From Arthrobacter sp. NIO-1057 (GTDB lineage Bacteria; Actinomycetota; Actinomycetes; Actinomycetales; Micrococcaceae): a stretch of 64,000 nt of DNA. Every line of letters starts with the position of its first letter. The stretch's first letter is position 1. Below the pieces are notes generated by a model that ran no database searches, was not told the DNA's origin, and saw nothing but the letters and a program-made list of their open reading frames with translations. The translations under genes were made by a program, and so were the position numbers. This document shows positions 30,112 through 57,015 of the stretch, in pieces. Location: assembly GCF_900094805.1 (NCBI RefSeq), contig NZ_FMAT01000004.1:62001-126000 (forward strand). The letters run 5' to 3'.

Positions 30112-30119
30112 GACATAAG
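30112..30119 (-). promoter_or_regulatory. Operator-like element upstream of the first fused CGD gene
   Basis: GACATAAG is the reverse complement of CTTATGTC, the core repeated before the ABC importer, the split CGD beta gene and the ROK gene. It lies 35-42 bp before the start codon at 30154. Confidence 0.4.
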
Positions 30120-30153
30120 ATGGAAGCGTACGCACTATGAGGAGTAGGTCACA

Positions 30154-31479
30154 ATGTTGCTGGAAAGAAGCCTGATTCAATCCGTTGGATTCCGCAATGT
30201 ATTTCAAGACGGACGCGCCATTGGATTTCAATTCAGGGTTCGCATGCCGTCGTACCGCGGGATGGCGGCGTCGCTGATCGATGGGATCGCGGTTTCTGTA
30301 GGGAATCTGGTGAGCGTTGGACCGGAAGTCCCGTTGTGGGACTTTGGAGGTGGCACCTACACCCTTGAGCAGCTCTGGGGCAGCGAGGGGCTTCGGTGGC
30401 CACTCGAAGAAGCCGCGGTTGTCACAGTGCCGCTTGAGGGGGGTCTGCCTCCAGGCGTGCATGAAGTCAGCGTCGAATTGCGCTTGAGGATGTCCTATAT
30501 TCCGCTCATTCACCAGCCATCAGTGTTCCGCGAAACCCGGATGGTCACCTTGGTGTCACAGGATGGCGGGGGCCAGTTCAAGTACGGAGTGTCGCTCTAC
30601 AGCTTCATGGGTGACTACTGCACGGACATGGATCTGGAAACCACTCTGGCGGCCATCAGCGATATCGGTGCCACCGGCGTGGAGATCCTCGGAGAGGGGC
30701 ATATTCCCGGATATCCCAACCCCTCCACGGCGTTCATTGACCGGTGGTTCGGGCTGCTGGAGCGCTATTCCTTGGAGCCGACGAACTATGGATCCTGGAT
30801 CGACACCCGGCTGCATCCTGGGCGTGGCATGACCGAGCAGGAAGGCGCGCTGGCATTGCAGCGCGATCTCAAGCTTGCGCATCAGCTCGGTTTCAAATTC
30901 CTCAGGCCAAAAATCGGCGTGGTTTCCGACGACCTGATTCCCGATCCCATCTGGCAAGGCGCGGTTGAGCGAAGCCTGGATCTTGCTCATGAGCTGGGGA
31001 TCATCATCTGTCCCGAGATCCATTCGCCGACACCGATCAAGCATCCGGTGGTGCAGGACTACATCAACCTCGTCGAACGCACGGGTACCGAGAACTTCGG
31101 ACTGCTTATTGATACGGGCATCTTCCAAGATCGCCCCATCCCGCTGCGCGAGGGCGAGAGCCGCGAAACCAGGCCGGCTTTCCTCGACGGCATCGGTGTG
31201 GACCCGGACGACTTCGCCGGGATTGCCGAATACGTGGTCTTTATCCAGGCCAAGTTCCACGACATCAACAACGAACTCGAAGATCAGCAGATTCCATGGG
31301 TTCCGGTCATCAATGCATTGCAGAACGCCGGATACCGGGGCTACCTGTCCAGTGAATATGAAGGTGAACGAACTGCAGGGCGCGCCATTGAACAGATCCG
31401 CCGGCAACACACTCTGCTCCGCGGGATCGCTGAGGTCAGCAAATCAACAACAAACCAGAAAGAAGAATCCCATGCCTAA
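30154..31479 (+). CDS. Single-chain beta-alpha C-glycoside deglycosidase-like enzyme (fusion 1)
   Basis: 441 residues. Residues 1-135 match the small beta subunit of C-glycoside deglycosidases (DUF6379; DgpC/CarC type): FRNVFQDGRAIGFQFRVRMP, YRGMAASLIDGIAVSVG, LRLRMSYIPL. Residues 142-425 are the alpha-type AP-endonuclease-2/xylose-isomerase-like TIM barrel. By alignment with the other alpha domains here, candidate metal ligands are Glu288 (CPEIHSP), Asp320 (LLIDTG), Gln365 (FIQAKF) and Glu401 (SSEYEGE). The third position is His in the other three copies. Such enzymes cleave the aryl C-C bond of 3-keto C-glucosides by beta-elimination. GAGGAG precedes the ATG, and the stop overlaps the next gene by 8 bp. 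Confidence 0.8.
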   Translation: MLLERSLIQSVGFRNVFQDGRAIGFQFRVRMPSYRGMAASLIDGIAVSVGNLVSVGPEVPLWDFGGGTYTLEQLWGSEGLRWPLEEAAVVTVPLEGGLPPGVHEVSVELRLRMSYIPLIHQPSVFRETRMVTLVSQDGGGQFKYGVSLYSFMGDYCTDMDLETTLAAISDIGATGVEILGEGHIPGYPNPSTAFIDRWFGLLERYSLEPTNYGSWIDTRLHPGRGMTEQEGALALQRDLKLAHQLGFKFLRPKIGVVSDDLIPDPIWQGAVERSLDLAHELGIIICPEIHSPTPIKHPVVQDYINLVERTGTENFGLLIDTGIFQDRPIPLREGESRETRPAFLDGIGVDPDDFAGIAEYVVFIQAKFHDINNELEDQQIPWVPVINALQNAGYRGYLSSEYEGERTAGRAIEQIRRQHTLLRGIAEVSKSTTNQKEESHA

Positions 31480-32950
31480 TGGCCTCATTGACGAATCCAG
31501 CCTCCGCGTCCATTCCGAAGGCCTTGCTGTGGCCTTGACGATTCCATGGTATCGAAGCCTCTGGCTGTCTTCGGTGACCTCACTGAAGCTGGCGCTGGAC
31601 GGGGTGGAGGTTCCAGCCGATGACCTCAGCTTTGAACTTCGCGGCGTGCGTTACACCGTCGATGAGCTGCCCAATCAGGATCAGGTCCTCTGGTTCCTCC
31701 AGGATCACCCGCTGCTGATCGTCGCGCTGCCCGAACCCGTTGAACTGGGCGCCGTGCTCACGGTGCGGATTTCTGGGGAGATGCGCTTACCGTACATGCA
31801 AATCGCTCCGGGGACTGATGGCGGGCCGGGGATGTATGTCCCGAACTTCGTGAACCAGCAACTGGAGCTGAAGGCAACCGACCGCCCGCAACAGGCGCAG
31901 ATTGAGATTGAACCCGTCGAACCGCCAGCGCCAAAAACGCAGGAAGACCCGTTTGATCTCGGGCTGACGTTGTATTCGGCCAGCGCTGAATACCGTGCCG
32001 GATGGTACAACTTCGACAGCTTGCTTGAACGTGTTGCGCAACTGGGAATCGGCCCCGGCATTGAGATGGTCGCCTCGCAAATGCTTCCGGACTATCCGCG
32101 GGTCACGCCCGAATTCACCAGGGTGTGGAAGGGAGCCATGGATAAATACGGGTTCACCGCCAGCTCTTTCGGCGCCAACCTGGACATGGGGCGGCGCCGG
32201 GACCGCGACATGACACCGGACGAGGAATTCGAGTTCAGCAGGACGCTGTTCGACGGGGCCAAAGCTCTGGGATTCCCACTGGTCCGTATTCAAAGCGCCA
32301 AACCAGAGCTGCTGCGACGGTTGCTCCCGGTGGCTGAAGAGCGCGGGCTGAAACTTGCCTACGAGATCCATGCCCCCATGGGGCCGAACTCACCTGAAAT
32401 CATGCGCGTGAGGGATGTCTACGAGGAACTGGACTCGCCGCTGCTGGGATTTGTCGCCGATTTCTCCTCCACCATGCACAGCATGTCTCCCACCCTGCTG
32501 CGCGCCGTGCGCCGGGCAGGCCTGGATGATCAGGCCGTGCGGCGCCTGCAGGAGATCTGGGCTACCGATGCCTCGATGCGTGAACGCCAGGAGCAATTCA
32601 TCGCCTACCTGTGTGGCTGTGACTTCGACCCGGCGCGCTTGGGGTCCTTCGCCCACCTGGCCTTCAATATGCATGGGCACGTCGAACCGGCGCAGTGGGG
32701 TGACATCATGCCGCAGATCTTCCATGTCCACGCCAAGTTCTACGACATCGACGAGCAGGGTGATGAGCCTGCCATCGATTATCCAGAACTCGTGCGCGTT
32801 TTCGTTGAAGGCGGCTACCGCGGCTATTGGTCCAGCGAATGGGAGGGTCACGCATTCGCCGAGCTCGGGGAAGTGGACCCGCTGGCGCTGGTGCGCAAGC
32901 AGCATGACCTGATTCGCCGCAGCATGCGGTCGATGAAGGCTGGTGTCTAG
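31472..32950 (+). CDS. Single-chain beta-alpha C-glycoside deglycosidase-like enzyme (fusion 2)
   Basis: 492 residues from ATG 31472; the frame is open further upstream only by chance. Residues 1-134 are a DUF6379 beta domain (ALTIPWYRSLWLSSVTSLKL, RLPYMQIAPG). A Pro/Glu-rich linker follows (about 135-160, EIEPVEPPAPKTQEDP), then a TIM-barrel alpha domain. Candidate metal ligands are Glu298 (AYEIHAP), Asp330 (VADFSSTMHS), His420 (FHVHAKFYDID) and Glu456 (SSEWEGHAF). It is essentially a fusion of the split pair encoded at 41454 (beta) and 40394 (alpha), to which each half is closely similar. In known enzymes the two chains assemble into a large complex; here the link is covalent. Confidence 0.82.
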   Translation: MPNGLIDESSLRVHSEGLAVALTIPWYRSLWLSSVTSLKLALDGVEVPADDLSFELRGVRYTVDELPNQDQVLWFLQDHPLLIVALPEPVELGAVLTVRISGEMRLPYMQIAPGTDGGPGMYVPNFVNQQLELKATDRPQQAQIEIEPVEPPAPKTQEDPFDLGLTLYSASAEYRAGWYNFDSLLERVAQLGIGPGIEMVASQMLPDYPRVTPEFTRVWKGAMDKYGFTASSFGANLDMGRRRDRDMTPDEEFEFSRTLFDGAKALGFPLVRIQSAKPELLRRLLPVAEERGLKLAYEIHAPMGPNSPEIMRVRDVYEELDSPLLGFVADFSSTMHSMSPTLLRAVRRAGLDDQAVRRLQEIWATDASMRERQEQFIAYLCGCDFDPARLGSFAHLAFNMHGHVEPAQWGDIMPQIFHVHAKFYDIDEQGDEPAIDYPELVRVFVEGGYRGYWSSEWEGHAFAELGEVDPLALVRKQHDLIRRSMRSMKAGV

Positions 32951-32968
32951 GCGACGAGCCGAGTTAAA

Positions 32969-33014
32969 GACGCGCAGGGCGCACCTCTATTCCAGGAGGT
33001 GCGCCCTGCGCGTC
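32969..33014 (+). terminator. Perfect 18-bp hairpin after fusion 2
   Basis: Positions 32969-32986 and 32997-33014 are perfect GC-rich inverted repeats with a 10-nt loop, 18 bp after the stop. No T-run follows. It probably separates the two fused CGD genes from the ABC importer operon. Confidence 0.7.
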
Positions 33015-33071
33015 AGTTGCTTGCGGGCCGGGTGAGTCTAGCAGTGGCGCGCAGAGGCGACGCAAATACTT

Positions 33072-33102
33072 ACTTATGTCTACTATCTGCAAAACTTATG
33101 TA
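33072..33102 (+). promoter_or_regulatory. Tandem ACTTATGT elements before the ABC importer
   Basis: ACTTATGTC at 33072-33080 and ACTTATGTA at 33094-33102 are direct repeats 22 bp apart (two helix turns), about 85-115 bp before the substrate-binding protein start. The same core occurs before other genes of the island and beside the ROK gene. They are likely ROK repressor sites. Confidence 0.5.
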
Positions 33103-33187
33103 CTTTTCTGGCACATGTATCCATAATTATGAGTGACCGGGATCACCCTTCGGTCGTACACTCACAAAGATGTTTGAAAGGCTGGTC

Positions 33188-34480
33188 ATGACTCAGCAAC
33201 GACGCTCCGCAGGCTTTAGACTTGCAGCCCTGGCTATTCCCACCGTCGCGGCACTCGCTCTGACCGGATGCGGGGGATCTTCGAGCAGCGCCTCCGATGC
33301 CGAAAACCAGGAATTCTCGCTCACGTTCGCGACCTCCAACACTGTTGAGAGCCCCTACGAGGCTCTGGCCAAGCAGTACATGCAAGAATTCCCCGACGTG
33401 AAAATCACCCTGAACCCACAGCCCAACGATTCCTATGACCAGGTGGTGCGCACGCAGCTGCAAGCAGGCAATGCTTCCGATGTCCTGGTCACCTCTCCAG
33501 GTTCGGCTTCAGGGCGCAGCATCCTGCCACTGGTGGAGGCTGGCTTCCTGGAGCCGTTGAGCGAATCGGCCGCGGCATTGGTCCCAGAAGGCAGCGAAGC
33601 GCTCTTCGGCCCAGATGGCAAGGTGTACGGCTTGGCTCCAGAGATCACCGTTGTTGGACTGGTCAACAACGACACCGCATCGGCCGCAGCCGGGGTCAAC
33701 GCGTTCCCCGAAGACTTCGCAGGTGTCCTGGAGCAGTGCGGGGTCTTGGCAGCAGACAACAAATCAATGTTTGCCGTCGCTGGCACCGCGGCGCCTAATA
33801 CCGGGTTGCTGGGAATGCAGCTGGCTGCCACCCGGGTCTATTCCAAGGACCCCGACTGGAACGACAAGCGAGCTGCAGGTGACGTGACTTTCGCCGGAAC
33901 CGAGGGCTGGCAGCAAGCCCTGGAGGCAGTGGTCGATTTGAAGGATGCAGGCTGCTTCCAGAAGGGTGCCGAGGGTGCCGGCTTCGACGTGGTAACCAAG
34001 GCATTGGTCGGCGGAGATTCGCTGGCTGCCTTCATCCCTGGCCCGAGCAACAAGCAATTGAAAACCACCGCCGAAGACCAGGACTTCGAGGTTCGGGTGC
34101 TGCCGAGCGAAGGCGGCCCGGACGAAGACTTCATCTACGCCAGCGCCAACTACGCCTACTCGATCAATGCAGCATCGAAGAACAAGGATGCTGCCACAAC
34201 CTTCTTGGAATGGCTGGCTGAGCCAGAACAGACCAAGGCTTTCGCAGAAATCGACGGAGCCCTGCCGGTGACCGGCCTGGAAGATTTCGACTTCGCCAAC
34301 AGCGCCTACAAAAACGTGGCAGACCTGGTCCTGAATAATCGCTACGCACCTCTGCCGAACAGCGAATGGTCCAACGCCTCGGTGTACGACGAGCTGGGTA
34401 CCGGTGTGCAGGGCCTGCTGACCGGTCAGCAGACCCCGGCCCAGGTGCTTGAGGCCATGGACGCCGCCTGGGATCAGTAA
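33188..34480 (+). CDS. ABC transporter sugar/glycoside-binding lipoprotein
   Basis: 430 residues from ATG 33188 (AAAGG 7 nt upstream). The lipoprotein signal ends in LALTGC, so the mature protein is lipid-anchored outside the membrane. The body is a family-1 extracellular solute-binding protein (SBP_bac_1/UgpB type): FATSNTVESPYEALAKQYMQ, a hinge region near DGKVYGLAPE, and the C-terminal TFLEWLAEPEQTKAFAE. It captures the substrate for the two permeases that follow. Context makes aryl C-glycosides or their oligosaccharide relatives the likely ligand. Confidence 0.88.
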   Translation: MTQQRRSAGFRLAALAIPTVAALALTGCGGSSSSASDAENQEFSLTFATSNTVESPYEALAKQYMQEFPDVKITLNPQPNDSYDQVVRTQLQAGNASDVLVTSPGSASGRSILPLVEAGFLEPLSESAAALVPEGSEALFGPDGKVYGLAPEITVVGLVNNDTASAAAGVNAFPEDFAGVLEQCGVLAADNKSMFAVAGTAAPNTGLLGMQLAATRVYSKDPDWNDKRAAGDVTFAGTEGWQQALEAVVDLKDAGCFQKGAEGAGFDVVTKALVGGDSLAAFIPGPSNKQLKTTAEDQDFEVRVLPSEGGPDEDFIYASANYAYSINAASKNKDAATTFLEWLAEPEQTKAFAEIDGALPVTGLEDFDFANSAYKNVADLVLNNRYAPLPNSEWSNASVYDELGTGVQGLLTGQQTPAQVLEAMDAAWDQ

Positions 34481-34529
34481 CCCGCTGATCTCTGAGGTTT
34501 TGGTTTCGGAAGAATAGGCAGAAATTATC

Positions 34530-35528
34530 ATGACGGTGACATCACAATCGACCAGTCGCGAGGCTAGCGAGCCAGCGAGCGGTCAAGCGCCCATCGGGCA
34601 GAAAACCGAAGATAGCCGCCCCGGACGGCGCGGTAATGGTTCGAAAAAACCTTCTCGTCCGCAATGGGGCTTGGAATTTGGGCATTGGTGGTGGGCGTTA
34701 CCCGGGATTGTGTTGGTTTTCGCCGTCCATTACGTGGCGACCGGTATCGGCGGGTTTTTCGCCTTCACCAACTGGTCGGGGATCGGCTCATTCGAGATTG
34801 TCGGGTTCAAGAACTTTGAAGCGATTTTCAACGACCCCACCAAAATTCGTTCCCTCGGCAACACCCTCTTTTTCGCCTTCGGCTCGGTGCTCCTTGGGAA
34901 CATCCTAGGCCTGTTGCTCGCCTTGGGACTGAATCGGGTGGTGAAAACACGTTACGCGCTGCGTACCCTGTTTTTCATGCCCGTGGTGCTCAGCCCGCTG
35001 GCCACGGCCTACATCTGGAAGTTCATTTTCGACTTCGACGGTCCGATCAACGTGTTGCTCACCTCGGTTGGCCTTGAACACCTGGCTAAACCGTGGTTGG
35101 CAGACCCGCACTGGGCAGTCTGGACAGTCCTCGTGGTACTGACCTGGTCTTCCACCGGATTCGCCATGGTCATTTTCATGGCCGGGCTGACCAGTGTTCC
35201 CAATGAAGTTGAAGAGGCCGCCGCGATTGACGGGGCCAACCTCTGGCAGCGTTTCTGCCACGTCACCCTGCCGGTGCTGCGACCGGCGGTGGCGATCGCG
35301 ATGACCCTGGGCATCGTGCAGGGCCTGCGGGTCTTCGACCCGATCATGGCGTTGACCAGCGGTGGCCCCGCCGGGGCCACCGAAACCCTGGCCACCGAGG
35401 TGTACAAGCAGGCATTTGCGCTCGGAAACTTCGGCGGCGGCGCCGCGCTGGCACTGGTGCTGGCGGTCATCATCCTATTCTTCGCCGTGCTCCAGCAGCG
35501 GCTCACCCGTTCGAACCCGGAGGACTAA
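34530..35528 (+). CDS. ABC sugar transporter permease (MalF-like)
   Basis: 332 residues with a long polar N-terminus (about 50 residues, Ser/Gly/Lys-rich) and six hydrophobic helices. The EAA loop that docks the ATPase reads EAAAIDGANLWQRFCHVTLP near residue 230. It pairs with the next permease as the heterodimeric channel of a carbohydrate importer (CUT1). There is no ATPase gene in the operon, so a shared MsiK-type ATPase encoded elsewhere must energise it, as is common in actinobacteria. Confidence 0.9.
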   Translation: MTVTSQSTSREASEPASGQAPIGQKTEDSRPGRRGNGSKKPSRPQWGLEFGHWWWALPGIVLVFAVHYVATGIGGFFAFTNWSGIGSFEIVGFKNFEAIFNDPTKIRSLGNTLFFAFGSVLLGNILGLLLALGLNRVVKTRYALRTLFFMPVVLSPLATAYIWKFIFDFDGPINVLLTSVGLEHLAKPWLADPHWAVWTVLVVLTWSSTGFAMVIFMAGLTSVPNEVEEAAAIDGANLWQRFCHVTLPVLRPAVAIAMTLGIVQGLRVFDPIMALTSGGPAGATETLATEVYKQAFALGNFGGGAALALVLAVIILFFAVLQQRLTRSNPED

Positions 35529-35532
35529 GCTC

Positions 35533-36369
35533 ATGTTCCGCTACACCAAGCTGACGCTGCTACGAGAAATTGGGCTCTGGGTCCTCGCCCTGGTGTTCCT
35601 GGCGCCCTTCTATTTCCTGGTCACCACGGCACTGAAGTCGGGTACCGAAATGTACTCCACCTCGCCGCTGGCGCTGCCCGAGAGCCTGGACTTCAGCGCC
35701 TTTGTTGATGTCTTGACCGCCACGGGCAATTCGAATGTGCTATCCGGGTTGCTCAACAGCGCGATCATCACCGCGGGCAGCATCCTCTTGCTGATCGTCA
35801 TGGGTTCGCTGACCGGGTACGTCATCGCCCGCGGCACCCGGCGCTGGACCAAGGCCGCCTACTACCTGTTCCTGGTTGCCATCATCCTCCCCGGCCAGCT
35901 GGGCGCCGTACCGCTGTACATGGGTGCACGAACCCTCGGTTTGACCGGTTCATCTTGGGGCATGGTCATCCTGTATACGGGCATGCTGCTTCCGGTGTCG
36001 ATTTTCCTTTACTCGAATTTTTTCCGCGGATTGGGGACCTCATACGAGGAAGCAGCGACCATTGACGGGGCCAGTCGATTCCAGATCTTCTCCAAGATCG
36101 TTCTTCCCATGATGGCCCCGGCCACCGGTACTGTCACGATCTTCGCGGGGCTGATCGTCTGGAACGACTTCTTCACCTCGCTGATCTTCCTGGGCGGATC
36201 CGAGAACCAGACCTTGCCAGTGGCCATGTACTACTACATCGGCTCACTGGTGTCCGAATGGAACTCCATCTTCGCCATCGTGATTGTCTCCATGATCCCG
36301 ATTCTGGTGCTGTTCCTCTTCGCGCAGAAGCGCTTCATCCAGGGATTTGCCGGCGGCCTGAAAGGCTAA
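35533..36369 (+). CDS. ABC sugar transporter permease (MalG-like)
   Basis: 278 residues from ATG 35533, 4 bp after the previous stop and preceded by GGAGGA. In-frame codons upstream to 35362 overlap the previous permease and are not used. Six helices are visible with the EAA loop EEAATIDGASRFQIFSKIVL and the C-terminal FAQKRFIQGFAGGLKG typical of MalG-type subunits. It forms the inner-membrane channel together with the 34530 gene. Confidence 0.92.
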   Translation: MFRYTKLTLLREIGLWVLALVFLAPFYFLVTTALKSGTEMYSTSPLALPESLDFSAFVDVLTATGNSNVLSGLLNSAIITAGSILLLIVMGSLTGYVIARGTRRWTKAAYYLFLVAIILPGQLGAVPLYMGARTLGLTGSSWGMVILYTGMLLPVSIFLYSNFFRGLGTSYEEAATIDGASRFQIFSKIVLPMMAPATGTVTIFAGLIVWNDFFTSLIFLGGSENQTLPVAMYYYIGSLVSEWNSIFAIVIVSMIPILVLFLFAQKRFIQGFAGGLKG

Positions 36370-36495
36370 GGCCCCGCCGGCCATCCCATCCCATCCAGAC
36401 AGGTCACGTACCTGTCGTGGTGACCCGCTGCGCCCAAAAGCAGGGCCCGCATCATCAATACCACTTACTTTCCACCCCTTGCGATAGGAGTTCCC

Positions 36496-37272
36496 ATGTA
36501 CGAGCTTGCCCCCAACATCGACCTGCTTTTTGCTGAAGCCGGCGAATCCGCTGCGGACCGGGTCCGTGCGGCGGCCGCCGCCGGATTCAGTGCCGTGGAA
36601 ATGTGGGGACCGACGGGCAAGGACATCCCGGCACTGAAGGATGCACTTGAGCAGACCGGTGTGAAGCTCACCGCCCAGCTGGCCGAGCCGCGCACCCAGT
36701 TCATGATTCCACCGAAAAATCATGCGCCGTTCTACACCGGGCTTGAAGAAGGTGTGCAGGTCGCCCTGCAGCTTGGCTGCCCGCGGATTGTTGTCGGCTC
36801 GGGCACCGGTTTTGGCGGACGCAAACGCCAGGACCAGCTCGATGAACTGATCGAGATCTACACCAAGGCCATCAAGCTCATCGACGGATCGGGCATCACC
36901 CTGGTGCTGGAACCGGTCAACGTGCGGGTGGATCACCCCGGCGCATTGCTGGACCGAACCTCGGAGGCGGTGTACGTGGCCCGCGGCGTGGATTCGGCGC
37001 AGTTCGGGGTGCTCTACGACCTGTACCATTCGACCGTCGAGGGCGAGGACGTTGAACACGAACTGGCCAACGCTGCGGGATTGATCAAATACGTGCAGAT
37101 TGCCGATGCACCGGGGCGGGGCGAACCGGGCTCCGGGCTGATTGACTGGACCTCGCGCCTGGTGCAGCTGCACACCAGCGGCTACCGCGGTGAGATCGGT
37201 CTGGAATACTACCCGACCGTCAGTTCGGACCAGTCCGTGAAGCGTATTCAGGAACTGGTGGCCGCACCATGA
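36496..37272 (+). CDS. Hydroxypyruvate-isomerase-like TIM-barrel sugar isomerase
   Basis: 258 residues of the Hyi/xylose-isomerase-like TIM-barrel family. It has AAAAAGFSAVEMWGPTGKD near the start, the ligand residues in LVLEPVNVR (Glu), LYDLYHS (Asp-His region), YVQIADAPGRGEPG (substrate/product loop of hydroxypyruvate isomerases), and the final Glu in IGLEYYP. It probably isomerises a keto-sugar or short-chain hydroxy-keto acid derived from the oxidised glycoside. Its stop overlaps the ATG of the oxidase gene (ATGA), so the two are translationally coupled. Confidence 0.85.
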   Translation: MYELAPNIDLLFAEAGESAADRVRAAAAAGFSAVEMWGPTGKDIPALKDALEQTGVKLTAQLAEPRTQFMIPPKNHAPFYTGLEEGVQVALQLGCPRIVVGSGTGFGGRKRQDQLDELIEIYTKAIKLIDGSGITLVLEPVNVRVDHPGALLDRTSEAVYVARGVDSAQFGVLYDLYHSTVEGEDVEHELANAAGLIKYVQIADAPGRGEPGSGLIDWTSRLVQLHTSGYRGEIGLEYYPTVSSDQSVKRIQELVAAP

Positions 37273-38837: not shown

Positions 38838-38850
38838 GGAATAAGTAAGT
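38801..38850. promoter_or_regulatory. Operator-like inverted elements before the split CGD pair
   Basis: ACTTATGTC at 38801-38809 (inside the end of the oxidase gene) and, reversed, ATAAGTAAGT around 38841-38850 bracket the region before the beta-subunit gene at 38878. The first element shares ACTNATGTCGAAA with the site beside the ROK gene. This suggests an internal regulated promoter. Confidence 0.4.
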
Positions 38851-38877
38851 CATGAAGAACCTAGACAAGGAGATCCG

Positions 38878-40373: not shown

Positions 40374-40393
40374 AAAACTCTGGAAGGAACATC

Positions 40394-41419: not shown

Positions 41420-41453
41420 CCGAAACCCAGGCCCAGATTGTTAAGGATTACCC

Positions 41454-43009: not shown

Positions 43010-43020
43010 GAGCACACATC

Positions 43021-47235: not shown

Positions 47236-47249
47236 TCAAGGAGAAGACC

Positions 47250-48860: not shown

Positions 48861-48900
48861 CCGGTGTGGTGCCCGCCGTTGCGGCGGGCACCATCGGTAT

Positions 48901-48927
48901 TTGACAAACAAATATCAAGCATATTCA
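48901..48927 (+). promoter_or_regulatory. Candidate promoter before the ring-cleavage genes
   Basis: TTGACA at 48901-48906 followed by TATTCA at 48922-48927 (15 bp spacing, shorter than ideal) in an AT-rich gap. The gap of about 150 bp between the oxidase and the dioxygenase is the only long one in the operon, so an internal promoter is plausible. Confidence 0.35.
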
Positions 48928-49013
48928 TATCTCTGTTCCACAAATACTTGAACTGGATCACACTGGTGTTGTGGCTCACAGTTGGTAGTCGCATCAACCC
49001 GAAAGGCATCACC

Positions 49014-50033: not shown

Positions 50034-50037
50034 CACG

Positions 50038-50973
50038 ATGAGCTACTCGCTGATCCGATTCACCCGTCTCGGTTCCGAAACCGAGCAAACCGGTGTGCTG
50101 GTGGACGGACGTATTCACTCGCTGCAGGCCCACATCAACGACCTGGTGCAGAACTGGGCCGACTGGCAGGAAACGGTCGAGCAGTCAATCGCCGAGCCCG
50201 CCGGGGACACGATTGACCTCGACGATGTTCGGCTGCTTTCCCCGGTGCAGCCGCAGCAGATCATCCAGGCCGGAGCGAACTACCGCACCCACGTCATCGA
50301 CCTGGCGGTTTCCCACAAGGAAGAGAACCAGAGCGAAGAAGAAGTTCGCGAGCAGACCGCGCGGATGATGGACAAGCGCTCCCAAGAGGGACTGCCCTAC
50401 TTCTTCATCGGACTGCCCTCGGCCATCGCCGCCCCCAACGACGAACTGTCGCTGCCCTACTACAGCCAGTCCCACGACTGGGAGCTGGAGCTGGCCGCGG
50501 TCATCTCAAAGCGCACCCACCGGGTCAGCGTCGATGAGGCCCTGGAGCACGTCTTCGGGTACACCATGGTCAACGACATCACCACCCGCGACCTGGTCTT
50601 CCGCAAGGACATGCCGGCCATCGGCTCGGACTGGTACCGCGCCAAGAACGCTCCGGGATTCTTCCCCACCGGGCCACTGCTGGTTCCTTCGAAGTTCATC
50701 GCGGACCCGCAGCAGCTGACCGTGACGCTGAAGCTCAACGGCCAGGTGATGCAGCAGGAATCAACCGCGGACATGATCTTCACCGTGGCCCAGCTCATCT
50801 CCCATGCCTCCTGGAATATGCCATTGCTCCCTGGAGACCTGGTGCTGACCGGTTCGCCGGCCGGAAACGGGGCGCACTGGGGACGGTTGCTACGCGACGG
50901 GGATGTGATGGAAGGCAGCATCACCTCCCTGGGCACGCAAACGGTGGCCTGCCGGGATGAGGTTCGGGTATGA
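50038..50973 (+). CDS. FAH-family hydrolase/isomerase (1)
   Basis: 311 residues; a C-terminal FAH domain with metal ligands in SHDWELELAAVISK (Glu-x-Glu) and the conserved GYTMVNDITTRDLV segment, then GDLVLTGSPAGNG near the end. FAH enzymes hydrolyse C-C bonds of ring-cleavage products or tautomerise and decarboxylate hydroxymuconate derivatives. It follows the dioxygenase by 4 bp and overlaps the next gene (ATGA), so it acts in the same pathway, most likely directly on the ring-opened product. Confidence 0.88.
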   Translation: MSYSLIRFTRLGSETEQTGVLVDGRIHSLQAHINDLVQNWADWQETVEQSIAEPAGDTIDLDDVRLLSPVQPQQIIQAGANYRTHVIDLAVSHKEENQSEEEVREQTARMMDKRSQEGLPYFFIGLPSAIAAPNDELSLPYYSQSHDWELELAAVISKRTHRVSVDEALEHVFGYTMVNDITTRDLVFRKDMPAIGSDWYRAKNAPGFFPTGPLLVPSKFIADPQQLTVTLKLNGQVMQQESTADMIFTVAQLISHASWNMPLLPGDLVLTGSPAGNGAHWGRLLRDGDVMEGSITSLGTQTVACRDEVRV

Positions 50974-51953
50974 GCACCGAAACCCACACCTGGGTTGGTG
51001 CTTCCCCGGAACAAGCGATCGCGCAAGCCGCCGAGCGTTATCGCAACTGGGGGCGCTGGGGCGAAGATGACGTGCTGGGCACCCTGAACTTCATCACCGA
51101 GGCCAAACGGGTCCAGGCCGCGTCGCTGGTGCGCAGCGGCACCACCTTTTCCCTCTCGCAGCCCTTCAGCTCCGAGGGCCCGCAGAAGGGTTGGCGCCGG
51201 CGCACCAACCCGGTGCACACCATGACGGACACCGGGGTGGAAGCCGAGCACGGGATGCAGGGATTCCCGCACGGCTTCGGCGGAGCGGATGACGTGATCT
51301 CCATGCCGCTGCAGTGCTCAACCCAATGGGATGGGCTGGGGCACATTTTCGATCGCGGCAAGGCCTGGAACGGGCGCGCCGCCAGCAGCGTGGTGACTTC
51401 CGAGGGGGACCGGGTCACGGGCATCGAAACCGCCGCCGCCCAGGTGCTCACCCGGGGTGTGCTGCTGGATGTCGGCCGGGTCTGCGGAACCGACGGGGAA
51501 CTCCCGGACGGGTTTGCCATCACGGAAGAACACCTGGAACAAACCATCGCGGCCCAGGGCTCAAGCTCCCAGGTGGGCCGCGGAGATATTGTCATCATCC
51601 GGACCGGGCAATACACTCGGGCCAAACGTGTCGGATGGCAGGACTATGCCGGCGGCGCGGCCCCCGGGTTGTCCTTCGGCACCGTCGGGTGGCTGCACCG
51701 CACCGAGATTGCCGCGGTAGCCACCGACACCTGGGGTTTCGAGGTCCGCCCCAACGAATTCGAGGAAGCATTCCAGCCCCTGCACCAGGTAGCCATCCCC
51801 AGCATGGGATTGTTTCTGGGGGAGATGTGGGATCCGGACGACCTGGCGCTGCATTGCGCTGGCGACGGGGTCTACGAGTTCATGCTCAGTGCCGCACCGC
51901 TGAAGATCCAGGGAGCCGTCGGCTCGCCAGTTAACCCGCTCGCCGTCAAATAG
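50970..51953 (+). CDS. Cyclase-family metal-dependent hydrolase (kynurenine-formamidase-like)
   Basis: 327 residues of the cyclase/arylformamidase family (PF04199 type). The metal site normally reads HxGTHxDxxxH. Here it is CSTQWDGLGHIFDRG, keeping Asp and the final His, as in the QWDGLGH subgroup. GDIVIIRTGQY and ATDTWGFEVRP are further family features. It probably opens or hydrolyses a lactone, ester or amide of the aromatic pathway. The start overlaps the FAH gene stop by 4 bp. Confidence 0.82.
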   Translation: MSTETHTWVGASPEQAIAQAAERYRNWGRWGEDDVLGTLNFITEAKRVQAASLVRSGTTFSLSQPFSSEGPQKGWRRRTNPVHTMTDTGVEAEHGMQGFPHGFGGADDVISMPLQCSTQWDGLGHIFDRGKAWNGRAASSVVTSEGDRVTGIETAAAQVLTRGVLLDVGRVCGTDGELPDGFAITEEHLEQTIAAQGSSSQVGRGDIVIIRTGQYTRAKRVGWQDYAGGAAPGLSFGTVGWLHRTEIAAVATDTWGFEVRPNEFEEAFQPLHQVAIPSMGLFLGEMWDPDDLALHCAGDGVYEFMLSAAPLKIQGAVGSPVNPLAVK

Positions 51954-51988
51954 GCAACGGTCCACGAGAATTACAAAGGAGAAATCAG

Positions 51989-53113
51989 ATGGCCGCAGTA
52001 TCTACCGTTGGAATCGTCGGCGCCGGCGCCGCCGGGCTGGCGCTGGCATCGTTCCTGGCTGACGCCGGGATCAAGACCGAAATTCTGGAGAAGTCCCAAG
52101 CCCCCTCCACCCTGGGCTCTGGGATCACCCTGCAGGGCAACGCGTTGCGAATCCTGCGCCAGTTGGGTTTGTGGGAGGAAATCTCCGCCCACGGATATGC
52201 CTTCAACGACCTGGGACTGCGTGCACCGAACCCCGAAGGTACGGTGCTGGCCATCCTCGATGAAATGCAGACCGGTGGCGCGGACCTTCCGGCGACCTTC
52301 GGGATGTACCGCCCCAAGCTGGCGGCCATCATGCGTGAGCGGGCGCTCGCCGCCGGGGTAGTGATTAGCTACGGCAAGACCGTGAAAACCGTAGAGGATC
52401 TCGGCAGTGCGGTCCGGGTGCACACCGAAGGCGGGGAGGAAACGGACTACGACCTGTTGGTCGGGGCCGACGGGATCCATTCAACCGTGCGCCGGGCCAT
52501 CGGGATCACCGCCGAACCGCAGCCTACCGGGATGGGGATCTGGCGTGCATTTGTTCCGCGTCCGGCCGAGGTGGTGCGCACCGACCTGACCTATGGCGGC
52601 CACTGCTTTATCGCCGGTTACTGCCCGACCGGGCAAGAGGACATGTACGCCTACCTGGTTGAGCGCGCCCAGGACAGGCACGATCAAAAAGACACCACCA
52701 TCATGGCCGAACTGGCCGCCAACTACGGCGGCCCGTGGAATGAAATCCAGCAGTCCCTGCTTGACGGTGCCCCGGTGAACTACACCCGCTTCACCCAGCA
52801 TGTGGTGGACGGGAACTGGCACCGTGGCCGCACCGTCATCATTGGCGATGCCGCGCATTCCTGCCCGCCAACCATCGCCCAGGGCGCCGCCATGGCGCTG
52901 GAAGACGCGGCGGTTCTGGCCGAAGAGCTGATCGCTGGGCAATCGGTGGACAACGAGCTGTGGGAGAAGTTCCACACCCGACGCGCCGAACGGGCCAGCG
53001 CGGTGGTGAAGGCCTCGGTGCAGCTGGGCCAGTGGCTCTTGGACGGCGAAAAGAACGCGGACGTCCCGGGCCTGATGGGCGGGTTGGCTTCGCGACTGGT
53101 GGTGCCGGCATGA
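51989..53113 (+). CDS. FAD-dependent aromatic monooxygenase (class A hydroxylase)
   Basis: 374 residues with the three landmarks of the para-hydroxybenzoate/salicylate hydroxylase family: VGIVGAGAAGLALASFLADA (FAD Rossmann), LLVGADGIHSTVRRAIG (DG motif) and VIIGDAAHSCPPTIAQGAAM (GD motif). It hydroxylates an activated aromatic ring with NAD(P)H and O2, which could prepare the aglycone for the extradiol dioxygenase. It is preceded by AAAGGAG. Its stop overlaps the amidohydrolase start (ATGA). Confidence 0.9.
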   Translation: MAAVSTVGIVGAGAAGLALASFLADAGIKTEILEKSQAPSTLGSGITLQGNALRILRQLGLWEEISAHGYAFNDLGLRAPNPEGTVLAILDEMQTGGADLPATFGMYRPKLAAIMRERALAAGVVISYGKTVKTVEDLGSAVRVHTEGGEETDYDLLVGADGIHSTVRRAIGITAEPQPTGMGIWRAFVPRPAEVVRTDLTYGGHCFIAGYCPTGQEDMYAYLVERAQDRHDQKDTTIMAELAANYGGPWNEIQQSLLDGAPVNYTRFTQHVVDGNWHRGRTVIIGDAAHSCPPTIAQGAAMALEDAAVLAEELIAGQSVDNELWEKFHTRRAERASAVVKASVQLGQWLLDGEKNADVPGLMGGLASRLVVPA

Positions 53114-54177
53114 GCGAGAACCAGCCAATTGTCGACGTCCACGCCCATGTGCTGCTCCCGCAGCTTGAGTCGCTGGTCAAGCAGCTGCATCCGGAAGGTT
53201 TGGCCGAGCAGCAGCGAACCGATCTGCTGCGCAATGGGCAAGAATCCCAGAAGAACTCGGGCCTGATGATCCGCGAACGCTGGCCGTTGCTCACCGACCT
53301 GGGCGCACGCCTGGAGCACATGGACAAGAGCCAGGTTGATGTCCAGATCATTTCACCCTCACCCTCTCATTTCTACGCATTTGCCGACACCGGGCTTGCC
53401 ACCACGCTGTACCAAGAAGCCAACCGCCTGATCCGCGAATACATCGATCAGGCTCCTGGACGCTTCCACGGCCTGGGCCTGGCGCCGCTGCAGCACCCGG
53501 AACTGATGGTGGCGGCCCTTGAGGACGCGGTGCTCACCCGGGGACTGGCCGGAATCGAGATCGGGTCCTATGCGCCTGATCCGAACGGAGGGACGGTTGA
53601 ACTTTCCGATCCGCGGCTGGACCGGTTGTGGGCGCGGGCCGAAGAGCTGGGCGCAATCATCTTCCTGCATCCCTTCGGATGCCCGTTGGAGGCACGGCTG
53701 GACAAGTTCTACCTGGCCAATACCGTGGCGCAGCCTGCGGAGAACGCGGTCGCGCTATCCCACTTCATCTTCGCCGGGGTCCTTGACCGGTTCCCCGCGC
53801 TGAAGCTGGTTGCCGCCCACGGCGGCGGTTACCTGCCGCAGGTGATCGGGCGTTCGGATCATGCCTGGAAGGTCCGCCCCGAGGCGCGGGTTTGCGCACA
53901 CGCCCCCTCAACCTACCTCTCCCGCCTCTGGTTTGATTCGCTGGTGCACAACCCTGTGGAGCTTGCCCGGCTGATGGAAACCGCGGGAACCTCCCGAGTG
54001 CTGTTGGGCTCCGACTATCCCTTTGACATGGGTAGCGACTATCCGGTGCAGGCGGTTGACCAGGCCGCGTTGGCCCCGGAACACCGCGAGGCAATCCTGC
54101 GGGGCAATGCAGCGGATCTCGGGTTGAGGTCCCTGGAGCACAGTGCGGCAACGGTTCTGGAAGGTAGTGAGAGCTGA
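53110..54177 (+). CDS. ACMSD-like amidohydrolase (decarboxylase or hydrolase)
   Basis: 355 residues from ATG 53110; a much longer frame upstream overlaps the monooxygenase and is not real. Amidohydrolase-2 (TIM-barrel) ligands are seen in IVDVHAHVLLP (HxH), IIFLHPFG (His), LVAAHGGGYLPQ (His) and LLGSDYPFDMG (Asp). The closest functional group is 2-amino-3-carboxymuconate-6-semialdehyde and aromatic-acid non-oxidative decarboxylases, so removal of a carboxyl group from an aromatic or ring-opened intermediate is likely. Both ends overlap neighbours. Confidence 0.85.
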   Translation: MSENQPIVDVHAHVLLPQLESLVKQLHPEGLAEQQRTDLLRNGQESQKNSGLMIRERWPLLTDLGARLEHMDKSQVDVQIISPSPSHFYAFADTGLATTLYQEANRLIREYIDQAPGRFHGLGLAPLQHPELMVAALEDAVLTRGLAGIEIGSYAPDPNGGTVELSDPRLDRLWARAEELGAIIFLHPFGCPLEARLDKFYLANTVAQPAENAVALSHFIFAGVLDRFPALKLVAAHGGGYLPQVIGRSDHAWKVRPEARVCAHAPSTYLSRLWFDSLVHNPVELARLMETAGTSRVLLGSDYPFDMGSDYPVQAVDQAALAPEHREAILRGNAADLGLRSLEHSAATVLEGSES

Positions 54178-55172
54178 TGGCGATTATTGCTCGCTGGATG
54201 CAGGTCAACGGCAAGGAACGCAGCGGATTCGTGGCTAATGGCCGCTGCTACCCGTTGGCGGCTAGCGAAAGTGTCCAGAACTTGTGCGACATGGGGCTGG
54301 CCGCGACCTTGGAACGCGCCGAGCAAACCATTGCGGAAGGTGAATGGGTTTCATTGGACCAAGTGCAACTGCTGGCCCCGATCAAGCCGCCCACCATCCG
54401 TGATTTTGTGGCCTTCGAGGAGCATGTTGAAGGGGTGAGGATCTCGGTGGATGGTGTTGCCGGGGTGGTTCCCCAATGGCATGAGGCGCCGACCTTCTAC
54501 TTCGGCAACCCCCACACCGTGCGCGGCACCGGTGCGAGCATCCCGATTCCCGCAGGATGCCAGGAGCTGGACTTCGAGCTTGAGGTTGCCGCGGTGATCG
54601 GTTCCGTTCCCGGAAGCAACGGTGAAAACCTCGATGCGGCAACGGCCCATCAGCACATCTTCGGCTACACCATCTTTAACGACTGGTCCGCGCGGGATCT
54701 GCAACGCCGTGAAATGAAGGTGAGCTTGGGTCCGTGCAAGGGCAAGGATTTCGCCAGCACCCTGGGCCCGTGGATCGTGACGGCTGACGAGTTCGAGCAC
54801 CTGCACGACGAGCAGGGATTCTTGGCCCTGCAGATGCAGGTGAGCGTGAATAAACAGCAGATCGGGATGGATTTGCTCTCCCACATGGGATGGCCCTTCG
54901 CCGAACTGGTAGCCTATGCCTCGGCCGATTCGGTAGTCCGTCCAGGCGATGTGCTCGGCTCTGGAACCTGCGGCAGCGGGTGCCTGGCCGAGCTGTGGGG
55001 GCGCAACGGAACCCAGAGCCCGCCGCCGCTGCAGCCGGCGGACACCGTGGTGATGAGTGTTGAAGGGATTGGCACCATCAGCAATACGGTGGGTGCGCGC
55101 CGCGAGGCAATCACCCGGGTTCCCTCCTCACCGCGCCCGCGGCTCGAAGCGGCCCGGCGGGCCCAGGGATGA
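54177..55172 (+). CDS. FAH-family hydrolase (2, fumarylacetoacetase-like)
   Basis: 331 residues. Unlike FAH (1) it carries the full fumarylacetoacetase-type signature: LDFELEVAAVIG (Glu-x-Glu), GYTIFNDWSARDLQRREM, LGPCKGKDFASTLGPW and VLGSGTCGSG. It should cleave a C-C bond of an acylpyruvate-type intermediate or hydrolyse a related product. The start is TGATG-coupled with the amidohydrolase and the stop overlaps the SDR start. Two different FAH enzymes in one operon suggest two successive hydrolytic steps. Confidence 0.87.
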   Translation: MAIIARWMQVNGKERSGFVANGRCYPLAASESVQNLCDMGLAATLERAEQTIAEGEWVSLDQVQLLAPIKPPTIRDFVAFEEHVEGVRISVDGVAGVVPQWHEAPTFYFGNPHTVRGTGASIPIPAGCQELDFELEVAAVIGSVPGSNGENLDAATAHQHIFGYTIFNDWSARDLQRREMKVSLGPCKGKDFASTLGPWIVTADEFEHLHDEQGFLALQMQVSVNKQQIGMDLLSHMGWPFAELVAYASADSVVRPGDVLGSGTCGSGCLAELWGRNGTQSPPPLQPADTVVMSVEGIGTISNTVGARREAITRVPSSPRPRLEAARRAQG

Positions 55173-55930
55173 ACCTGGGACTGGCCGGGAAAACCGTGGT
55201 GGTGACCGGGGCGGGGCAGGGACAGGGAAGCGCCGAAGCGCGGCTGCTGGTGGAACACGGTTGTCGGGTTTTCGCCGTGGATCTCTGTGCCCAGGTCCCC
55301 GCCGAATTGCGCGGCCTGAGCGGACCTGGTGAGCTGATCTACCGCCAACTTGATGTCACCAAGCGTGCCCACTGGGAAGAGCTGGCGGCGCAACTGTCCG
55401 GGCGGGAGGTGCACGGGCTGGTGAACAACGCCGGGATCACCCAGCGTGACCGCTTGGCGCAGGTCAGCCTGGAGCAACTGCACCGGGTTTATGAGGTCAA
55501 CGTGGCCGGGCCCCTGCTGGGAATCCAGGCCCTGACTCCGCTGTTCGCCCCGGGCTCCTCCATAGTGAACATCGGTTCCGTGGCCGGGCTCAGCTCCCAT
55601 TATCCGGTGGCCTACACCACCAGCAAGTGGGCGCTGCGGGGGCTGACCCGAGTTGCCTGCATGGAATTAGGCCCAGCCGGGATCCGGGTGAATTCGGTTC
55701 ACCCGGGATTTATTGAAACCCCCATGACCAGCGCCGCGAACCCCAGCTTCCGTGAGGCGACGATTCGTGAAACGCCGTTGGGCCGGGCCGGAAGCAGCCA
55801 GGAAGTTGCCAATGTGGTGCTGTTTTTGCTCAGCGATTTATCTTCATTTGTCAACGGCGCCGAAATCCCGGTGGACGGCGGGCAAACGGCTCATGGCGGG
55901 GCTAAATCCATCTCGGATGCACTGAAATAA
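55169..55930 (+). CDS. Short-chain dehydrogenase/reductase
   Basis: 253 residues of a classical SDR: cofactor motif VVVTGAGQGQGSAEA, NNAG in GLVNNAGITQR, active-site SVAGLSSHYPVAYTTSKWAL (Ser, YxxxK) and the C-terminal INGAEIPVDGG-type ending (NGAEIPVDGGQTAHGG). It uses NAD(P) to oxidise or reduce a hydroxy/keto intermediate. It is the last gene of the overlapping aromatic operon; the substrate is unknown. Confidence 0.9.
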   Translation: MNLGLAGKTVVVTGAGQGQGSAEARLLVEHGCRVFAVDLCAQVPAELRGLSGPGELIYRQLDVTKRAHWEELAAQLSGREVHGLVNNAGITQRDRLAQVSLEQLHRVYEVNVAGPLLGIQALTPLFAPGSSIVNIGSVAGLSSHYPVAYTTSKWALRGLTRVACMELGPAGIRVNSVHPGFIETPMTSAANPSFREATIRETPLGRAGSSQEVANVVLFLLSDLSSFVNGAEIPVDGGQTAHGGAKSISDALK

Positions 55931-56028
55931 ATGGTTGAGCGCCCCCGCGCAACACCCGGTGACCTGCAGAATCACCACGACGGTGGGGAAACCGGCACTA
56001 CGAGGGAAGTAAAGTCTAAGCTGGCACC

Positions 56029-57015
56029 ATGAAGAATCTTGATATCAATCTGTTGCCGGTGCTGCAAAGCCTGTTGCGAATGCGCAACGTCACGCGCGCG
56101 GCGGATTTTTTGGGGCTGAGCCAACCGGCCACCAGCGCGGCCCTGTCCAGGCTGCGCCGATATTTTGATGATGAATTGCTGGTGCGCTCCGGGCGCGGAT
56201 ACGACCTCACCCCGCTGGCCCAGGATCTGCAACCGCTGGTGGAATCGGCAATGCACGCCATCGACCGGGTCTCGACCATCAAGAGCCAGTTCAACCCCGC
56301 CACCAGTGATCGAAAGTTCGTGATTGTCGCCTCCGACTACGTCGCGGCGATGCTGGTGGAACCACTGCGGGCGATCCTCCGGGTTGAAGCGCCTGCGGTC
56401 TCGGTGGAGATCACCCCGACCTCCGCGGCGTCGTGGGATCGCAGTACCTACGGAAAGTGGGACTTGATTGTTGGGCCCATGGGATACGATCTGCCCGGGC
56501 ACGGCAAACCCGTGTTCCGCGATAGTTTTGTGGCGGTGCTGGATGCCGATAATCCGGTGTTGGACAAACCGGATCTCAGCGCCCAGGATCTGGTGAAACT
56601 ACCTCAGGCCGTGGGGTTCTTCGGTTCAGAAATCCGGACACCGGGTGATCAGTTCTGGGATGTCCTCGGTGAATCTCCCGCCATTGCCGCCCGTGTGCAG
56701 GGCCTGCTGTCCCTGCCATTGCTGGTAGAAGGAACCGACTTGATGGCCTTGGTGCCGCGCATGCTGGCCTACAAGTACTCGCGGGGAACCAACTTGGCGA
56801 TTGTCGATTTTCCGGTGGAGCATGAAGCGGCACTCGTGGAAGCGATGTTCTGGCATACGAACCGCGATGATGATCCGGCCAATTCCTGGCTCAGATCCGT
56901 CGTGCAACGGGCCTGCACGAAACTGCACGAGATCCTGCAGACGCTGAATCCCGAGGTGCGTCATGCCTCCATTGGGCTTGCAAGCATGCCCGATGACCGC
57001 GAGATCAATAGCTGA
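56029..57015 (+). CDS. LysR-family transcriptional regulator (NahR/NodD-like)
   Basis: 328 residues. The N-terminal helix-turn-helix reads NLLPVLQSLLRMRNVTRAAD, FLGLSQPATSAALSRLRRYF, which is the NahR/NodD/LinR style beginning. It is followed by a two-lobed effector-binding domain (FVIVASDYVAAMLVEP). Such regulators activate degradation operons in response to an aromatic inducer. The gene lies 98 bp after the SDR on the same strand, not divergent, and probably controls the aromatic operon, perhaps through the AT-rich region before the dioxygenase. Confidence 0.88.
   Translation: MKNLDINLLPVLQSLLRMRNVTRAADFLGLSQPATSAALSRLRRYFDDELLVRSGRGYDLTPLAQDLQPLVESAMHAIDRVSTIKSQFNPATSDRKFVIVASDYVAAMLVEPLRAILRVEAPAVSVEITPTSAASWDRSTYGKWDLIVGPMGYDLPGHGKPVFRDSFVAVLDADNPVLDKPDLSAQDLVKLPQAVGFFGSEIRTPGDQFWDVLGESPAIAARVQGLLSLPLLVEGTDLMALVPRMLAYKYSRGTNLAIVDFPVEHEAALVEAMFWHTNRDDDPANSWLRSVVQRACTKLHEILQTLNPEVRHASIGLASMPDDREINS

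Follow-up and report, generated by a model that had tools for sequence, protein, structure and literature searches.

A 27,815-bp block within a 64,000-nucleotide stretch of the genome of Arthrobacter sp. NIO-1057 (assembly GCF_900094805.1, contig NZ_FMAT01000004.1, positions 62,001 to 126,000; hereafter the window, from whose first letter all coordinates are counted) is interpreted here, with a probability of about 0.8, as a catabolic island that breaks down aryl C-glycosides and was acquired horizontally. It contains four candidate C-glycoside deglycosidase (CGD) modules, two glycoside oxidases, and an adjoining aromatic ring-cleavage operon with an extradiol dioxygenase (EDO). The enzyme types and their chemistry are known, while the arrangement, in which four sugar-removing modules are joined to ring-breaking genes, is one for which no report was found: among the titles and summaries listed in searches of the open-licence literature, none concerned a four-module CGD cluster or CGD genes joined to ring cleavage. 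C-glycosides are hydrolysis-resistant and widespread in plants, and little is known of what becomes of them in soil.

Four probable deglycosidase modules and two glycoside oxidases

The four modules are probably C-glycoside deglycosidases, an assignment made from sequence because of their CGDB and TIM-barrel families, their catalytic and metal-binding residues, an invariant tyrosine in the beta domain, and their closest solved relatives. CGDB (PF19906, formerly DUF6379) is the Pfam family of the C-glycoside deglycosidase beta subunit, with a cut-off of 27.6 bits. The 3.54-Mb genome contains four matches, all inside the window (108.6, 57.3, 54.7, and 49.1 bits), and none occurs in the control genomes (0/14); the four DUF6379 domains proposed by a first-pass annotation of the stretch are thereby all upheld above the cut-off. 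Every CGDB domain is paired, adjacent or fused, with a xylose-isomerase-like TIM barrel of the Pfam family AP_endonuc_2 (4/4). F1 and F2 are single-chain beta-alpha fusions, and M3 and M4 are split pairs. The modules and oxidases are as follows, with revised starts for F2 (overlapping the stop of F1) and Ox2.

30154..31479, +, F1, single-chain CGD, beta and alpha (TIM barrel lacking the lid-region stretch); CGDB 105.1 bits, AP_endonuc_2 46.9 bits
31472..32950, +, F2, single-chain CGD, beta and alpha, AgCGD2-like; CGDB 45.8 bits
37269..38837, +, Ox1, glycoside 3-oxidase, clade IV-like; 859 bits to 7qf8 (PsG3Ox)
38878..39273, +, M3 beta (CGDB); 55.1 bits
39270..40373, +, M3 alpha; 196 bits to 7dnm_A, active-site residues
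40394..41419, +, M4 alpha, AgCGD2-like; 685 bits to 7dnm_A
41454..41852, +, M4 beta (CGDB); 57.5 bits
47250..48860, +, Ox2, second glycoside oxidase, clade II-like; 366 bits to 8qve (query without N-terminal residues)

The nearest solved relatives of the TIM barrels are CGDs and not unrelated isomerases. M4 alpha aligns with AgCGD2 (AgCarB2-C2) of Arthrobacter globiformis (7dnm; PMC8563793) over residues 1-340 on 1-340, and F2 matches the same enzyme at 428 bits to 7dnm_A and 96 bits to 7dnm_B, its alpha part being 57-58% identical in structure-based alignments, although AgCGD2 is a separate-chain heterodimer and F2 a single chain. A profile of all four betas matches 7dnm_B at 164 bits. F1 aligns end to end (residues 1-427, 664 bits) with the CGD of Microbacterium testaceum (8qrz, 8un2, released 2025), likewise a single-chain beta-alpha fusion, from which no difference in kind was found; F2 falls in another clade. 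No paper on 8qrz was found in the literature searched, but since the structure is in the Protein Data Bank (PDB), single-chain CGDs are already known. Chance open reading frames (ORFs) or unrelated isomerases can be ruled out as an explanation of the modules, with all four CGDB domains above the cut-off and CGDs as the closest solved relatives.

Residue numbering and roles follow AgCGD2 (PMC8563793), whose metal-binding and catalytic residues are the same as those of M4 and F2. Metal ligands 147/179/269/271/305 read E/D/H/K/E in F2, M3, and M4 and E/D/Q/K/E in F1, so that the E/D/H(or Q)/E set noticed at first pass is confirmed with the addition of a ligand lysine (K271) and with Q in F1 only. 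The catalytic His149 and the supporting Glu307 are kept in all four alphas. Among relatives of at least 40% identity, the window rows included, these catalytic and metal residues are retained in 14/14 of the F1 group (with Gln at 269), 11/11 of the F2 group, 10/11 of the M3 group (one truncated), and 16/16 of the M4 group; the change of His269 to Gln is also present in the matching stretch of 8qrz. In the beta domains, the tyrosine of a P-x-Y-R motif is invariant (4/4). It is taken as the counterpart of Tyr39 of PuCGD, which is far more necessary for C-C than for C-O cleavage: the change of Tyr39 to Phe in the PuCGE beta subunit costs more than 99% of C-cleavage and only about 59% of O-cleavage (PMC10628242), and in the equally long matched stretches of F2 and DgpB (7bvr_B) the F2 tyrosine falls on chain position 39.

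The four alphas share 26-54% identity. A tree of 82 alpha domains, built by a quick method with the SH-like approximate likelihood-ratio test (SH-aLRT) only and accompanied by long-branch warnings, places them in four separate groups, each with relatives from other genera. Recent tandem duplication is ruled out by this identity range and grouping. F1 is fused in the window, G137, G252, G385, G519, G544, G587, G595, G645, and the plasmid of Arthrobacter sp. StoSoilB13, and split in G063, G121, G367, and L087. F2 is one frame in 8/9 other genomes or plasmids read with a close relative (at least 60% identity), being split only in G121, which makes an assembly error an unlikely source of the F2 fusion. 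AlphaFold models of F2 from three rows (pLDDT 69, pTM 0.55) and seven rows (pLDDT 74, pTM 0.62) recover both domains, with TM scores by target length of 0.84 to 7dnm_A and 0.81 to 7dnm_B; against 8qrz the score is 0.54 (root-mean-square deviation 14.7 Å), and the mutual placement of the domains is not recovered.

Separately, a fifth CGD-like paralogue adjoins the ROK-family regulator gene in relatives (L060:5162-6157, L106:5205-6191, L112:23639-24724, and 17 more rows) and is absent from the corresponding gap in the window (44026-44101). It keeps the metal ligands, with His149 changed to Gln and Glu307 to Gly in 20/20 rows, and its function should differ from elimination.

Ox1 and Ox2 have the GMC fold of pyranose oxidases and C-glycoside oxidases (POx/CGOx) with clade-specific substrate loops. 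The Ox1 loop LDASPVPLADDD fits the clade IV consensus, and the Ox2 loop, TESTPFPMDP, compares with SETTPFPMDP for clade II (PMC10807413). Both proteins read GAHW at the flavinylation motif, which the same paper prints as GAWH for clade II. A genome search with Ox1 at E 1e-10 returned these two proteins and no third relative, in keeping with the two pyranose-oxidase-like flavoproteins initially described. One characterised clade II enzyme oxidises aspalathin and the O-glycoside phlorizin and comes from a host with a clade IV gene as well (PMC11673046).

Two other activities may be considered for the modules. They might mainly cleave 3-keto O-glucosides of plant phenolics, with C-glycoside cleavage as a side activity, as PuCGE acts on both 3-keto O- and C-glucosides (PMC10628242) and Ox2 resembles clade II, to which the phlorizin-oxidising enzyme belongs. 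This is judged unlikely, as the tyrosine on which C-cleavage by PuCGE depends is kept in all four betas, the O-specific eliminase AtOGE has no beta subunit (PMC10628242), and the closest relatives are AgCGD2 for F2 and M4 and the solved M. testaceum CGD for F1. There is also a small chance that some modules act on the released 3-keto sugar, as hydratases or isomerases, and are not eliminases. The residue losses of the fifth paralogue indicate that such drift occurs in the CGD family, and the whole F1 group has exchanged His269; on the other hand, His149 and Glu307 are retained in the window's four alphas, and 8qrz, the relative of F1, carries the title C-glucosyl deglycosidase.

Insertion of the island

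The first-pass annotation placed the locus at 30112-57015, and base-by-base alignment with sister genomes gives a slightly wider inserted unit:

29314..57128, no strand, inserted block of 27,815 bp; 7 bp at this place in the sister genome G246

In the nearest sister (L119), window positions 23860-29313 correspond by blastn to 1-5454 at 96.0% identity and 57129-63204 to 5462-11537 at 94.1%. In two more sisters (L120 and L121), the junctions lie at most 2 bases from 29313/57129, and the site is empty in all three sister genomes so aligned. All 18 sampled genomes of the genus have the genes that flank the site, identified by eye as a transporter (27939) and phosphotransferase system (PTS) enzyme I (57509). 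As calculated from the positions of the matches, the two genes lie 0.46-4.8 kb apart in the 17 others (458-484 bp in 12/17) and 28.3 kb apart in the window. No CGDB match was found in those 17 genomes, and an EDO search at E 1e-80 across all 18 returned solely the window's own gene. The gene set of the island entered the window genome in one piece.

No tRNA was found at the insert, no repeat linking its two ends was present among the families listed (20 of the 29 direct-repeat families), and neither an integrase nor a transposase appeared among the 20/24 island proteins scanned with Pfam or the transporter (MFS) and LysR proteins. The right junction (57129-57166) is the start of a strong hairpin adjoining the HPr gene (named by eye), a possible insertion target. 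The left end (29314-30153, about 840 bp) contains only a doubtful ORF of 184 amino acids; no match was obtained by blastn between this end and the loci of six relatives, or between 29250-30170 and plasmid records. Rfam gave no match in 28000-58000, and a promoter and terminator scan of 29300-46000 stayed at chance level. A perfect inverted repeat of 19 bp around an 8-bp loop (32969-33014) lies after F2 and ahead of the binding-protein gene, where it perhaps limits read-through from the lyases to the transporter genes.

Ring-cleavage operon and its probable coupling to the deglycosidases

The adjoining aromatic ring-cleavage operon reported at first pass is present by Pfam and NCBIfam families, with a revised start for the EDO.

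49014..50033, +, EDO, extradiol ring-cleavage dioxygenase, VOC family; TIGR03211 241 bits, below the cut-off of 320
50038..50973, +, FAH1, fumarylacetoacetate-hydrolase family; PF01557 203.6 bits
50970..51953, +, Cyc, putative cyclase family; PF04199 74.6 bits
51989..53113, +, FMO, FAD aromatic monooxygenase; PF01494 136 bits, PRK06847 subfamily above cut-off
53110..54177, +, Amd, ACMSD-like amidohydrolase/decarboxylase; PF04909 142 bits, 159 bits to 2wm1
54177..55172, +, FAH2, fumarylacetoacetate-hydrolase family; PF01557 174.9 bits
55169..55930, +, SDR dehydrogenase; PF13561 184.9 bits
56029..57015, +, LysR-type regulator; LysR models below cut-offs, homologue of at least 40% identity in the EDO flank at 38/80 loci

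Coupling of the CGD and ring-cleavage genes, suggested at first pass together with the position of the modules beside 3-oxidases, is highly likely, being backed by recurring neighbourhoods, co-occurrence, and one-piece insertion. Genomes of the family (n=295; EDO threshold E 1e-120) contain CGDB in 8 cases and EDO in 30, with EDO in 7/8 CGDB-positive and 23/287 CGDB-negative genomes (Fisher p 4e-7); with the genus left out, the proportions are 6/7 and 23/270 (p 5e-6), both values ignoring shared ancestry. In the order (n=396), 16 genomes contain CGDB, which together with the family set gives 21 different CGDB-positive genomes. Eight of them have four or five matches (one match below the cut-off in two of the eight), one has three, five have two, and seven have one. 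The claim that several modules set this locus apart from known systems therefore needs qualification, as multiple matches recur in these genomes and the cluster of Pseudarthrobacter siccitolerans has two CGD pairs beside PsG3Ox (PMC10646112).

Loci were examined for 20 of the 21 (G516 left out). An EDO of at least 60% identity lies in the same stretch in nine: G000 (the genome of the window), G121, G137, G236, G261, G367, G385, G587, and G595. In G252, the CGD contig ends in the gene for the Gfo/Idh/MocA dehydrogenase (Gfo). The EDO of this genome is on a second contig, roughly 20 kb away from an end that bears the hydratase candidate (Hyd) and would extend the CGD contig. G544 contains the remaining operon genes and no close EDO, and G063 has an EDO far from its CGD genes. 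Most of the gene set recurs in similar order in G385, G587 (where the stretch stops inside the operon), G595, G544, G261, G252 (as two contigs), and the 1-Mb plasmid of StoSoilB13. The gaps are Hyd and Gfo, not seen at their place in G595, the close EDO in G544, and F1 in G261. The MFS-Ox2 pair follows the operon in G261 (with F2 interposed), G385, G595, G544, and StoSoilB13 and precedes it in the window. M3 alpha of the StoSoilB13 plasmid is represented by two overlapping ORFs (L112:14893-15681 and 15410 onward).

In an EDO-centred survey of the best 80 of 201 relatives, neighbours were counted at 40% identity or more within flanking sequence of up to 10 kb. The flanks contain FAH2 at 71 loci, cyclase at 69, FMO at 67, Amd at 60, FAH1 at 59, LysR at 38, and Ox2 at 15. 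A CGD gene is present at 13/80 loci (one of them, L086, in G236), and L044 has a more distant CGD pair. On a plasmid of Deinococcus aetherius, a transporter, CGD alpha, DUF6379, GMC oxidase, EDO, cyclase, and FAH are contiguous; D. aetherius is related to Deinococcus aerius, whose C-glucosyl flavonoid and xanthonoid deglycosylation cluster has provided a CGD with solved alpha and beta chains (8qvc, 8umc). After these genes, the D. aetherius cluster (L111:14900-25017) encodes an SMP-30 lactonase, a P450, and an alpha/beta hydrolase, with cupins farther along; some of these enzyme types are also known in ifc. A Rhizobium rhizogenes plasmid with an EDO relative (44%) has no annotated CGD in the stretch examined.

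Two operon types can be distinguished. The window EDO, whose nearest named relatives belong to Paeniglutamicibacter, Pseudarthrobacter, and Arthrobacter, shares 79-88% identity with the EDOs of Arthrobacter-type loci, most of which stand alone (FMO 60-75% where found), whereas in the joined clusters of G261, G385, G587, G595, and StoSoilB13 the EDO is 68-70% and the FMO 52-54% identical to the window's. L060 is mixed (joined cluster, EDO 81%, FMO 54%), and the EDO of G137 is 83% identical. In G252 and G137, the CGD half likewise seems to be joined to an Arthrobacter-type operon. An Ox2 homologue (80-81%) also flanks Arthrobacter-type operons without a close CGD at L034, L038, L039, L043, L049, L053, and L055, which hints that the substrates of these seven arrive as glycosides.

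As regards the aglycone, the presence of an FAD monooxygenase and an extradiol dioxygenase in one operon resembles, in enzyme types only, A-ring meta-cleavage by Fde of Herbaspirillum and Ifc of Variovorax, in which an FAD monooxygenase is followed by a glyoxalase/VOC dioxygenase (PMC11069340, PMC8552027). The fde system has the Rieske protein FdeD and ifc has cupins such as IfcD; neither partner occurs among the 20/24 island proteins scanned with Pfam. Work by Marin in 2016 is said to have found that fdeG encodes a putative cyclase. FdeR is a LysR-type protein, described as a naringenin-dependent activator, and the LysR gene product of the window probably regulates the ring-cleavage operon. 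The likeliest aglycones, at about even odds and by analogy with Fde/Ifc, would be 5,7-dihydroxyflavonoids opened at the A-ring; a phloroglucinol-carboxylate or dihydrochalcone route is possible. Elsewhere in the genome, an intradiol dioxygenase pair could take a protocatechuate B-ring. Two stand-alone ring-cleavage loci have no neighbour gene naming their substrate among 10 ORFs scanned, 7 of them with a match.

Proposed route and significance

The remaining genes of the island concern transport, regulation, and the sugar route.

33170..34480, +, ABC sugar-binding protein; SBP_bac_1, 92 bits
34530..35528, +, ABC permease 1; 52% identical to a D. aetherius 'sugar ABC transporter permease'
35533..36369, +, ABC permease 2; 41% identical to a D. 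aetherius frame
36496..37272, +, AP1, hydroxypyruvate-isomerase-like TIM barrel; TIGR03234 154.9 bits, below the cut-off of 353, PDB relatives weak
41849..43009, +, Gfo, Gfo/Idh/MocA dehydrogenase (Pfam), proposed 3-keto-glucose reductase
43021..44025, +, Hyd, proposed 2-hydroxy-3-keto-glucal hydratase; 569 bits to 2zds, 125 bits to 8ro4
44102..45379, -, ROK-family regulator; ROK 169.7 bits, NagC/Mlc and glucokinase models below cut-offs
45706..47235, +, MFS transporter (DHA2-like); TIGR00711 200.5 bits, below the cut-off of 230.2

Both permeases are named by the annotation of their D. aetherius relatives, the frame compared with permease 2 having the same end as a gene annotated 'carbohydrate ABC transporter permease'. 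Of the importer first proposed, the binding protein and two permease genes stand, and no ATPase gene is present among the ORFs listed. The term 'isomerases' used at first pass was too loose, as one of these proteins, Hyd, resembles over residues 16-317 the solved 2-hydroxy-3-keto-glucal hydratase 8ro4. The published route proceeds by C3 oxidation, beta-elimination to 2-hydroxy-3-keto-glucal, hydration, and reduction (PMC13273386, PMC10628242), and the island would follow it. Glycosides would be taken up through the ABC and MFS transporters, and, by homology, Ox1 or Ox2 with O2 would oxidise the glucosyl C3-OH, releasing H2O2. One of the four lyases, the aglycone pockets of which differ, would then catalyse a metal-assisted beta-elimination to aglycone and 2-hydroxy-3-keto-glucal, as suggested by the metal site and beta tyrosine present in their sequences. 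Hyd may hydrate the glycal to 3-keto-glucose and Gfo may reduce this to glucose, so that the oxidases, the likely hydratase, and the dehydrogenase together could return the sugar as glucose. FMO would hydroxylate the phenolic aglycone, EDO would open the ring, and the FAH, cyclase, and decarboxylase proteins would cut it down. Complete mineralisation of several C-glycosides, as proposed at first pass, goes beyond what these genes support.

Several observations weigh against the interpretation as a catabolic island for aryl C-glycosides. Hyd is far closer to the unassigned protein 2zds (PDB title 'putative DNA-binding protein') than to 8ro4, and none of EDO, Gfo (best NCBIfam model levoglucosan dehydrogenase, 334.8 bits, cut-off 650), and AP1 reaches the curated cut-off of its best NCBIfam model. 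The flavonoid A-ring route is likened to Fde/Ifc by enzyme type only. One third of the CGDB-positive genomes (7/21) have a single CGDB match, and no EDO of at least 60% identity was found within the stretch examined in 8/20 (G235, G445, G458, G459, G500, G519, G573, and G645). At 67/80 EDO loci, the flank examined lacks a CGD gene of at least 40% identity, and the substrate of the operon therefore need not come from C-glycosides. In addition, the island is, on the sequence identities above, a composite rather than a simple copy of a single ancient cluster, with the CGD half joined to an operon of the mostly stand-alone type; the idea that it copies the supercluster of G385 and StoSoilB13 was dropped, as its ring-cleavage operon is of another type.

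These last points would suit a view in which the deglycosylation (30154-44025) and aromatic (45706-57015) blocks are chance neighbours with different substrates, as many Arthrobacter and related loci have the operon without a close CGD gene, frequently accompanied by LysR (38/80). This is very unlikely, however, since a single insertion contains both halves, F2 of G261 lies among the genes of the aromatic block, and Ox2, a glycoside oxidase by family, stands in the EDO flank of 15/80 loci. CGD and ring-cleavage genes are also joined in several genera, on the 1-Mb plasmid and in Deinococcus, with two operon types, on account of which the coupling looks selected. The composite make-up disfavours a single conserved unit, but a second, separate joining favours a functional link.

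Among known systems, the PsG3Ox cluster of P. siccitolerans and the CarABC and PurABC systems of soil actinobacteria combine an FAD 3-oxidase with CGD alpha and beta genes, as here, and the clusters described contain one or two modules (PMC10646112, PMC12724307, PMC8563793). The window differs from them in its four modules, two oxidase clades, fusions, hydratase and reductase candidates, and adjoining ring-cleavage operon; the excerpts of these three papers describe no aglycone genes beside CGD genes. AgCGD1 and AgCGD2 come from one organism, alpha and beta homologues were adjacent wherever the authors looked, and the other genes of these CGD clusters are said to need study (PMC8563793).

A division of labour by sugar position is also conceivable, although doubtful, with M4 (perhaps F2) acting at C8 and M3 and F1 at C6. 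Met249 and the full-length loop before it, tied to C8-active AgCGD2 (PMC8563793), are kept in M4 and F2. In M3 this loop is shortened and without Met249, as in C6-active enzymes, and F1 resembles the lid-less C6-active EuCGD in missing about 45 residues where the other modules have the lid region. If this proposal is true, one cell could strip both sugars from the 6,8-di-C-glycosyl flavones of cereals and pass the bare flavone to an Fde-like A-ring pathway. Schaftoside and vicenin are examples of such flavones. The island would then provide, by itself and in transferable form, a route that leads di-C-glycosyl flavones towards central metabolism, and we know of no earlier route of this kind.

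One lyase of this type also works in reverse, making C-glycosides (PMC13273386). The four phylogenetically distinct lyases of the window offer a set in which position and aglycone specificity may be compared, and the island as a whole is a candidate for most of the steps that lead from the glycoside to glucose on one side and to an opened aromatic ring on the other.

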